Shown piece by piece: positions 59,863 to 63,222 of a DNA stretch of 64,000 bases. The notes under the pieces were generated by a model, which was not told where the DNA came from, ran no database searches, and worked only from the letters and a program-made list of their open reading frames with translations. Positions within the stretch are counted from its first letter, which is position 1, and each line of letters opens with the position of its first letter. Position numbers and translations under genes: made by a program. Origin of the DNA: Chloroflexota bacterium. GTDB lineage: Bacteria; Chloroflexota; Dormibacteria; Dormibacterales; Dormibacteraceae. Where the stretch lies: positions 1 to 64,000 of the forward strand of contig VBIA01000120.1 of the NCBI GenBank assembly GCA_005879985.1. Reading direction: 5' to 3'.

Positions 59863-60036
59863 GTGCTCGTTGCGCTGATCGTGCTGATCTTGCTGCTGCT
59901 CCTCTTTGGAGGCGGCGGGCTGGTGTCTGCATCTCTCACCTTCCTCTGGTGGATCCTGATCATCGGACTCGTGCTGTGGCTCCTCGGTTTCTTCTTCCGG
60001 GCGGCAGAGGGCGGCGGACGCTGGTACTACTGGTAA
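59863..60036 (+). CDS. small hydrophobic protein (57 aa), absent from supplied ORF track
   Basis: MLVALIVLILLLLLFGGGGLVSASLTFLWWILIIGLVLWLLGFFFRAAEGGGRWYYW; GTG start, SD aaaggaggt. Confidence 0.75.
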   Translation: MLVALIVLILLLLLFGGGGLVSASLTFLWWILIIGLVLWLLGFFFRAAEGGGRWYYW

Positions 60037-60073: not shown

Positions 60074-60349
60074 CTACGCCTTGCGCCACGCAATCGCCCG
60101 GCCGAGGCGGCGCTCGAAAGCGGCCGCAACCTCTCCCGGATTCGGGTGTCTCTTCAGCTGAGCCTTGCTGAAGACGAGGTCGCCGTCGAGGATGACCTCG
60201 AACCGCCCGGTGCTACCGCTGCGCAGCTCCACGGTGCGCAGGATGGGCGCCCAGCCGGCCAGCAGCTCGTTGGCCAGGCTCACGGCCTGGTCGAGATAGT
60301 CTCAAGGGACGCAGAACTCGATCGATGCTTCGTGCTTGGGGTCGATCAC
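60074..60349 (-). CDS. SelT/SelW/SelH (Rdx) family selenoprotein, UGA at 60302-60304 read as Sec
   Basis: MIDPKHEASIEFCVPUDYLDQAVSLANELLAGWAPILRTVELRSGSTGRFEVILDGDLVFSKAQLKRHPNPGEVAAAFERRLGRAIAWRKA; the in-frame TGA separates two track ORFs (60302..60817 and 60074..60283). Confidence 0.85.
60274..60290 (-). promoter_or_regulatory. bacterial SECIS-like hairpin just downstream of the UGA
   Basis: mRNA sense CCAGGC-CGUGA-GCCUGG, loop starts 18 nt after UGA and contains GU. Confidence 0.65.
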
Positions 60350-60360
60350 GTCAAGGGATG

Positions 60361-60762
60361 CTACCCGGTGACGCTGCGCGGTGTTCCGAACTGATTCCGC
60401 ACCGCCTTGCCGCGCAGCAGCAGGATGACGGCGAAGGGCAGCACGCTGTTTACCAGCAGCGACACGGGCCCCCGGTTGGCGCCGATCGGCAACGCGAGCA
60501 TCAGCAGCGAGCCGATCAGACAGGTCCATTCGAGCACCAGCACCGCGCGCCGCGCCCATGTGCGCCTCCACACCACTTCCATGCCGCTCCACACCGTGAA
60601 TCCCGCGAGCGCAAAAGAAAACGCCGCGAGCAACAGCATGTAGACCTCGCCCCCGAGCACGAAGGGCAGCGCGGAGATGCCGGCGAGGAACCAGAACGTC
60701 GCCTGCATGAGCAGCAGCACGAACGCGGCTTCGGGGCGGCTGGTGGCGTTCACGCCTTTCAT
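60361..60762 (-). CDS. membrane protein, 4 TM
   Basis: MKGVNATSRPEAAFVLLLMQATFWFLAGISALPFVLGGEVYMLLLAAFSFALAGFTVW... Confidence 0.7.
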   Translation of the reverse strand: MKGVNATSRPEAAFVLLLMQATFWFLAGISALPFVLGGEVYMLLLAAFSFALAGFTVWSGMEVVWRRTWARRAVLVLEWTCLIGSLLMLALPIGANRGPVSLLVNSVLPFAVILLLRGKAVRNQFGTPRSVTG

Positions 60763-61841
60763 GTCCTGTCGATTGCGGCAACAGCCGCGGGGTCGATGTC
60801 GACCGCGAACGGACCACCCTTCGGGTTGTCGACGATCCAGACGTGCAGCATCGCCGGCGCGGTCACGTCGATCGCGCCAAACGGACACGTCGAGTAAGGC
60901 GTCATCAGGCTGAACTCGAGCCCGATCGGGGTGAAGCAGATGTTTTCGTGCTGATGCCACGCGGTCAGCGGACCGCCGGGGTCAGGCCCGAAGGCGCCGA
61001 TTCGCTGCATCTGGAACATCGCCCCGAGCAGCACGGGCCCGTGATGCGTATTGGCATACACGAGTCCCTGCGGACGTTGCGGATCCAGCACGGATGCCTT
61101 CTCGTACGCCTTGTTGAACCAGTGCGTGGACGGCATGTCGGTCGAGCCGGCAGGCCGGTACCCCGCGGCCCAAGCCTGACGCCAGTCCTGGAACGGGACG
61201 ATCGCCGCCGCGGTCTGCTCGTAGAGCTTTGTTGCCGCAGCCTGCTGGCCGGAGGTCGGCACCACGTTGGTGGACTGCAGCGTTGCGCCGGCGTGCACAT
61301 GGCGCGGATCAGGATGCGCAAGGGACTCGATCCACACCCCGGTGCCGCTGACCAGCATCAGCGCGGGCAGGCCTGAAGCCAGCAGCGCCCAGTACCACGG
61401 CCGGTCGCGCATCGGCTTTTCGTTGAGCACGGGCACGAGCACCATCCCGAGCGCCGCGAACTCGATGACCTTGGTCGCCAGCCCGACCTGGTCCGGGGCC
61501 TCGAGCCGGAAGTCCACATAGAAGAGGTAGCCGAGGATCGTCGCCACGAGCAGCGCTGCCGAGCTCAAGCGCCACCAGCGCCACCTGACGGCACCGGCGA
61601 GCGCGAGAAAGGCGACGCCATTGAAAAGAAAGAGGACCGACGTCAGCGGATCGGTGGCGAGGTGATCAGGGATGAGCGAGAGGTGGACCACGCCCGTCAC
61701 CGCCATCAACACGCATGCGATTTGCACCGTGCCCGGCTGCGTCCGATGCTTGCGACCTCGGCGCACCGCGAGGACCGCCAGCGGCAGAAAGATCAGGGCG
61801 GCGTACAGGCCGATTGCGTGTGTTGGCGCAACGTCGTACAT
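60759..61841 (-). CDS. membrane protein with C-terminal extracytoplasmic domain, unknown function
   Basis: MYDVAPTHAIGLYAALIFLPLAVLAVRRG... multiple TM; C-terminal WFNKAYEKASVLDPQRPQGLVYANTHHGPVLLGAMFQM...WHQHENICF. Confidence 0.75.
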   Translation of the reverse strand: MYDVAPTHAIGLYAALIFLPLAVLAVRRGRKHRTQPGTVQIACVLMAVTGVVHLSLIPDHLATDPLTSVLFLFNGVAFLALAGAVRWRWWRLSSAALLVATILGYLFYVDFRLEAPDQVGLATKVIEFAALGMVLVPVLNEKPMRDRPWYWALLASGLPALMLVSGTGVWIESLAHPDPRHVHAGATLQSTNVVPTSGQQAAATKLYEQTAAAIVPFQDWRQAWAAGYRPAGSTDMPSTHWFNKAYEKASVLDPQRPQGLVYANTHHGPVLLGAMFQMQRIGAFGPDPGGPLTAWHQHENICFTPIGLEFSLMTPYSTCPFGAIDVTAPAMLHVWIVDNPKGGPFAVDIDPAAVAAIDRT

Positions 61842-61863
61842 GCGCCCATCGTGGGCGTGGGTT

Positions 61864-63222
61864 CTAAGAGCGCGATAAGAGAGGCAGGTCGACGAAAAAC
61901 CCCGCGCCGCCGTCAGGCCCGTCGGCGGCGATGATGCGGCCGTTGTGCTGTTCCGCGATCCAGCGCGCGATGGCGAGGCCGAGACCGGCTCCGCCGTCGA
62001 GCCGCGCAGAGTCAGCTTTGTAGAACCGCTCGAATATGCGCTCGCGCTCGTCAGGCGCAACCCCGGGCCCGTCGTCGGCAACGATCAGCCGGGCCCAACC
62101 GCCTTGTGTGTGGACGGCGACGGAGATCTTCGAGCGGGCGTGGCGGCCCGCGTTGTCGAGCAGGATCCACAACAGCTGGCGGAGCGCGTCCTCGTCTCCC
62201 GACACTGCGAGGTCGGACAGGTCGGTCGTCAGCTTCAGGTTCGGATGCAGTGTGGCGGCTTGCCTCGCCACCTCTTGCGCGACCGGCGCGAGCTGCACCG
62301 GCGCGAGCTGCAGGTCGAGGCCCGAGTCCGCGCGCGCGAGCGTCAGCAGGCGGTCCGTGAGCCTTGCCATGCGCTCGCTCTCCCCAACGATGTCGGCGGC
62401 TGCGGCGCGGCGCACTTTCTCCTCGACGTTCGGGCCCACCGCGAGCAAGCCCGCGTTGCCCTGGATGGTGGCAAGCGGCGTGCGCAGCTCGTGGGAAGCG
62501 TCGGCGACGAAACGGCGCTGCGCGTCCAGCGCGCCCTCAAGCGCCGCGAGCATGCGGTTGAAGCCGGCCGACAGCAGTGCCACTTCGTCGCCGCGCCGGC
62601 CGACAGCGAGGCGCCGGCTGAAGTCCTTCGTGCTTCCGATGTCATCAGCGGTGCTCGCGACCAGGCGCAGCGGGCGCAGGGCCCGGCCCGCCACCAGCCA
62701 CGACGCGATGAGCGCCGCGAGAAGCGCGGGCACTGCAGAGATGATCAGAAACACGACCACCCCTGAAAGGTTCGATGCGGGCACGCGCGTTGACTGACCC
62801 GCGACGACATATCCGCCGTGGGCGGGTAGCGCGTACACGCGAAGCTGCGTGCCTTTGCCTGCATCTCCCTCAGTCGCGTAGGCGCCACTGTTCCTGTCAG
62901 CCTGCCCGAGCAGATCTTTTGTGATCGGAGGTGGTGCGCCGTCGAGCACGGCGGTCGCGTACAGGGGGCTGCCACCTGTGTCAAGGATCTCGATGTAGAT
63001 CTCGGTGCTGCTGCTCAGGTCTGCTGGGGCCACGAGCGGACGCGGCGACAGCTCAGGGATATTGGTCGCCGCCGCGGCCTGCCGCGCGCGGTCGCGCAGC
63101 TGCGAGTCCTGGTTGGAGGTGACACTGCGGGCCAGCAGCGTGTACACGAGCGCGCCAAACAGCACGAGCGCGAGCGCCACCACGGCGGCCCCGAACAAGG
63201 CCAGTCGCAACCGAAGTGACAA
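61864..63222 (-). CDS. sensor histidine kinase (HAMP, HisKA, HATPase)
   Basis: FVADASHELRTPLATIQGNAGLL, VADDGPGVAPDERERIFERFYKADSARLDGGAGLGLAIARWIAEQHNGRI. Confidence 0.97.
   Translation of the reverse strand: MSLRLRLALFGAAVVALALVLFGALVYTLLARSVTSNQDSQLRDRARQAAAATNIPELSPRPLVAPADLSSSTEIYIEILDTGGSPLYATAVLDGAPPPITKDLLGQADRNSGAYATEGDAGKGTQLRVYALPAHGGYVVAGQSTRVPASNLSGVVVFLIISAVPALLAALIASWLVAGRALRPLRLVASTADDIGSTKDFSRRLAVGRRGDEVALLSAGFNRMLAALEGALDAQRRFVADASHELRTPLATIQGNAGLLAVGPNVEEKVRRAAAADIVGESERMARLTDRLLTLARADSGLDLQLAPVQLAPVAQEVARQAATLHPNLKLTTDLSDLAVSGDEDALRQLLWILLDNAGRHARSKISVAVHTQGGWARLIVADDGPGVAPDERERIFERFYKADSARLDGGAGLGLAIARWIAEQHNGRIIAADGPDGGAGFFVDLPLLSRS

Follow-up and report, generated by a model that had tools for sequence, protein, structure and literature searches.

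SelW-like selenoproteins with a CxxU motif have long been known in bacteria. They were reported in 2005 from bacterial Sargasso Sea sequences (PMC1088965), a 2006 count found ten of them in sequenced genomes (PMC1794560), and in the Global Ocean Sampling data SelW-like was the family with the most selenoprotein sequences, 427 in all (PMC2398784). Recent reviews list the family as PF10262 CxxU (PMC9312934, PMC13188914), and bacterial SelW genes that annotation had missed entirely have already been reported (PMC4607533). The Chloroflexi were listed in 2006 with three selenoproteins from three families (PMC1794560), and the lineage studied here is not named for the SelW-like family in PMC1088965, PMC1794560, PMC2398784, PMC9312934 or PMC13188914. 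The gene described below resembles the bacterial SelW-like (SELENOW-like) PF10262 proteins in its Rdx domain, its CxxU motif, with Sec as the second redox residue, the SECIS-like hairpin past the UGA and the accompanying sel genes. Because such proteins are long known and abundant in bacteria, it is a well-supported new member of an existing family, and the novelty implied by the original prediction was overstated. It broadens the distribution known for bacterial SelW-like selenoproteins and leaves the picture of the family unchanged.

We analysed a window of 64,000 nucleotides from a Chloroflexota bacterium (contig VBIA01000120.1). From its sequence we conclude with great confidence that a minus-strand gene encodes an Rdx (SelW/SelT/SelH) selenoprotein, in which an in-frame UGA would be read as Sec (Table 1). 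The gene reads VIDPKHEASIEFCVP-TGA-DYLDQAVSLANELLAGWAPILRTVELRSGSTGRFEVILDGDLVFSKAQLKRHPNPGEVAAAFERRLGRAIAWRKA-TAG, and its GTG start follows the stop codon TAG (60363-60361) of the upstream gene after 11 nt. Many relatives begin at the homologous position with V/M-(I/L)-(D/N)-P, which supports the GTG start. The frame, the TGA, the start and the 11-nt gap had been described before, and all their coordinates were reproduced. Under the standard code, the locus yields a 171-aa ORF which ends at the TGA, is mostly in the wrong frame and overlaps the upstream gene, and a separate 69-aa ORF downstream of the TGA. These two were indeed the ORFs called, in line with the earlier claim that standard gene callers would lose the gene. 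However, since the mid-gene UGA almost certainly signals selenocysteine on the sequence evidence given below, the two "fragments" would be one intact redox protein. The 133-aa product of the upstream gene had no Pfam match.

Table 1. Coordinates of the selenoprotein gene, its elements and related genes of the source genome
Feature	Position	Strand	Description
CDS, SelW-like (Rdx family) selenoprotein	60074..60349	minus	GTG start, 91 aa, VIDPKHEASIEFCVPUDYLDQAV...AWRKA, stop TAG (60076-60074)
In-frame TGA, putatively read as selenocysteine (Sec), residue 16	60302..60304	minus	second redox position, C-V-P-U motif
TGC, Cys13 of CVPU	60311..60313	minus	invariant among aligned homologues
SECIS-like hairpin CCAGGC-CGUGA-GCCUGG	60274..60290	minus	6 bp, -9.5 kcal/mol, 5-nt loop 60284-60280, G at loop position 2
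Upstream co-directional gene	60361..60762	minus	133 aa, likely membrane protein (hydrophobic by eye)
selD with in-frame TGA	L020:1501-2412 (own genome C167:3386-4297)		
TGA-containing FdhA gene	L077 (own genome C32:3118-4389)		
TGA-containing FdhA gene	L078 (own genome C204:8106-9749)		

Searched against Pfam, the read-through protein had Rdx as its sole match (E 6.7e-16, 58.7 bits, cut-off 22.6), which spanned the UGA. TIGR02174 (CXXU_selWTH) also aligned over the whole domain and scored 49.4 bits (E 4e-13) against its general subfamily cut-off of 34.2. The proposed Rdx identity was thus borne out by two profiles that exceed their cut-offs across the TGA, and the UGA was found to occupy the second redox position of CxxC/CxxU. 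The whole domain aligned as well with NCBIfam NF041051 (SelTWH_Campy; E 1.7e-18), at 66.6 bits, below the Campylobacter equivalog cut-off of 88. We then modelled the protein with AlphaFold2 from 25 aligned window and locus proteins, with Cys standing in for Sec. The model reached a mean pLDDT of 95.9, and the product is predicted to have a SelW-type thioredoxin-like fold. Its top matches in the PDB were the SelW-related bacterial proteins 2FA8, 2OKA, 2OBK and 3DEX, with TM-scores of about 0.8 (0.81-0.85 for 2FA8); these and 2P0G share the fold at a TM-score of about 0.8 and a sequence identity of 22-31%. Mouse SelW was a weaker structural match, and a PDB sequence search recovered the same bacterial SelW-related proteins.

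Whether the TGA is a selenocysteine codon was assessed by comparison with related genomes. We searched 41 genomes that belong to the same class or are more closely related, the source genome included; 24 carried an Rdx gene, each with exactly one TGA, at the same codon and always within C-V-P-U. In a phylum sample of 399 genomes, Rdx was found in 187, with one TGA or none among the matches listed. The redox column held only U or C and the first Cys was invariant in the loci read, so that Cys/Sec pairs were found among homologues, as the original prediction would have it. A genome-contig search with the single protein matched only a same-genus relative. While CVPU is the motif in this class, many other phylum members among the loci read carry CTSU, and a C-terminal tail ending in W-R/K is typical of this class, unlike other SelW-like proteins. 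Judged from the profile matches, the shared TGA of the 24 class genes and the common start position, the TGA-spanning frame is more than chance. The phylum sample also contains genomes with a TGA-Rdx plus at least one Cys-Rdx (for example G133, G176 and G226).

The same comparisons bear on the alternatives. The TGA could be a true stop and the downstream frame the pseudogene left behind by an Rdx gene that was once of the Cys type; two fragments are what the standard code yields. However, all 24 class members share this TGA and have no other stop inside the domain. Moreover, comparison with the same-genus relative (contig VBFW01000135.1, Chloroflexi bacterium isolate CF_62) revealed 15 synonymous and 5 nonsynonymous changes past the TGA, with a dN/dS of 0.097, indicating that the post-TGA region is under purifying selection; against more distant relatives, dN/dS was 0.25-0.45. 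A pseudogene is therefore extremely improbable. Since the window belongs to a single draft assembly (235 contigs, 2.85 Mb, 88% complete), a sequencing or assembly error over a true Cys codon (TGC or TGT) also had to be considered. Yet 24 separate genome assemblies have the TGA at this codon, which makes such an error very unlikely, and the near-perfect co-occurrence of TGA-Rdx with SelA leaves it a negligible chance. By hand counts among the matches listed in the phylum sample (the weakest Rdx rows excluded), 93 of the 94 genomes for which a TGA-Rdx was listed had a strong SelA match; where only Cys-Rdx was listed, the figure was 32 of 44 (Fisher p 3e-6, relatedness ignored). The lone exception, a 77%-complete genome, had weak SelA fragments only.

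Both before and after the UGA the frame stays open, which would also suit readthrough as another amino acid, for instance through a leaky stop or through a change of the code to Trp. However, this genome's selA and selB read normally under table 11, and in none of the loci read does the column hold Trp, all of them having Cys or TGA there. The assembly also encodes a tRNA-Sec (selC) with a UCA anticodon, which scored 66.7 bits against a gathering score of 47. Furthermore, the other TGA-interrupted genes that we found are canonical Sec genes, and readthrough of this kind is highly improbable. One of these genes is selD itself, whose reading frame contains a TGA where Cys or Sec is expected (HGAGUACK); a search of the 60 nt from this TGA for a perfect-stem hairpin of the standard model found none. 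The others are two formate dehydrogenase-like molybdopterin oxidoreductases (FdhA), whose TGA contexts, CNRTUHAPS and ARVUHGPT, we take to be canonical for formate dehydrogenase Sec. With these two further FdhA genes, the source genome probably has at least four selenoprotein genes. The assembly also has selA adjoining selB, which has the SelB winged-helix domains; all four of selA, selB, selC and selD are thus present. Altogether, the refuting tests named with the original prediction were each run or approximated and none spoke against it, supporting the original interpretation.

In the proposed mechanism, SelB carrying Sec-tRNA(Sec) would bind the hairpin that lies immediately 3' of the UGA, and SelB-dependent insertion of Sec at residue 16 would create the C-V-P-U active site. 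The Cys/Sec couple may then form and break a selenenylsulfide bond, and the protein would therefore act as a small thiol/selenol oxidoreductase, a role suggested by its family, fold and motif.

The hairpin itself begins 12 nt past the UGA, with its loop at +18 (17 nt spacer). The bSECIS model specifies a loop of 3-9 nt, a stem of 4-16 bp, a G in the first two loop positions, a spacing of 16-37 nt and a stability of -7.5 kcal/mol or lower (PMC13188914), and the hairpin agrees with it in every respect, although this is not specific alone. Among the 1,648 TGAs in the window, which has a GC content of 67%, model-fitting hairpins of -7.5 kcal/mol or lower followed 13.4%, and those of -9.5 kcal/mol or lower followed 6.3%. 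Thus, the sequence, position and loop of the hairpin were as originally described, but its weight as evidence had been overstated. In addition, when this gene was recoded synonymously, 28% of the versions were as stable, so the single-gene result is not significant, and Rfam gave no SECIS match at the site, only chance-level matches. Folding of the 50-61 nt past the UGA gave no significant z-score, and the single-gene stability was therefore dropped as proof.

We also compared the hairpins of homologues with synonymous shuffles in a pooled test that ignored relatedness. The mean z was -0.88 for the 24 class Sec genes and -1.19 for 23 Sec genes from other parts of the phylum, whereas seven Cys genes showed no excess over synonymous recodings (mean z +0.08). 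The threshold of -7.5 kcal/mol was reached by 19 of the 24 class members but by only 6 of the 23 Sec genes elsewhere. Taken together, the hairpin alone is weak evidence, yet by these shuffles its recurrence in homologues exceeds what synonymous codon choice would lead one to expect. In the two FdhA genes of the source genome, the best hairpins have their loops at +19/20, near the +18 of this gene. Pairing of the window hairpin at fixed columns was not fully kept in the class alignment, because other class members use another register: the best loop lies at +22 (GGUCU) in some and at +18/19 (CGUGA or similar) in others. The contrast can be seen among the loci between L028, L029, L037 and L042 on one side and L001 on the other. 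We tentatively suggest, as a possibility that we consider rather doubtful, that the SECIS hairpin has shifted its register by about 4 nt within one orthologous gene. If true, such a shift would provide a test of how SelB tolerates a changing UGA-to-loop spacing in evolution.

Nucleotide conservation between this species and its same-genus relative was strongest around the TGA. Thirty-eight consecutive codons, a stretch that begins at the start codon and takes in the TGA and the hairpin, showed zero nucleotide change, while 20 of the remaining 53 codons differed (window 60077-60349 against L036/L023). When identity was counted in 50-nt blocks, only the two blocks flanking the TGA reached 50/50. 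An RNA element superimposed on protein constraint would fit this unchanged run, although the start region could also contribute to it.

The locus illustrates cleanly how normal annotation can lose a gene. Since every Rdx gene found in the class is the Sec form, automatic annotation likely misses or truncates the Rdx gene throughout the class.

The gene neighbourhoods gave no function. Genes resembling D-Ala-D-Ala carboxypeptidases and 5'-3' exonucleases, as judged by eye from their sequences, recur as neighbours in some genomes only, and the side on which the carboxypeptidase-like gene lies varies between genomes. In the window, a 440-aa ORF (60759-62081, minus strand) lies two genes upstream of the selenoprotein gene and has a DUF7475 match just over the cut-off. 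Convergent with the selenoprotein gene is a 57-aa, very hydrophobic ORF (59863-60036, plus strand; MLVALIVLILLLLLFGGGG...GGGRWYYW) with GGAGG ahead of it, which probably encodes a small membrane protein.
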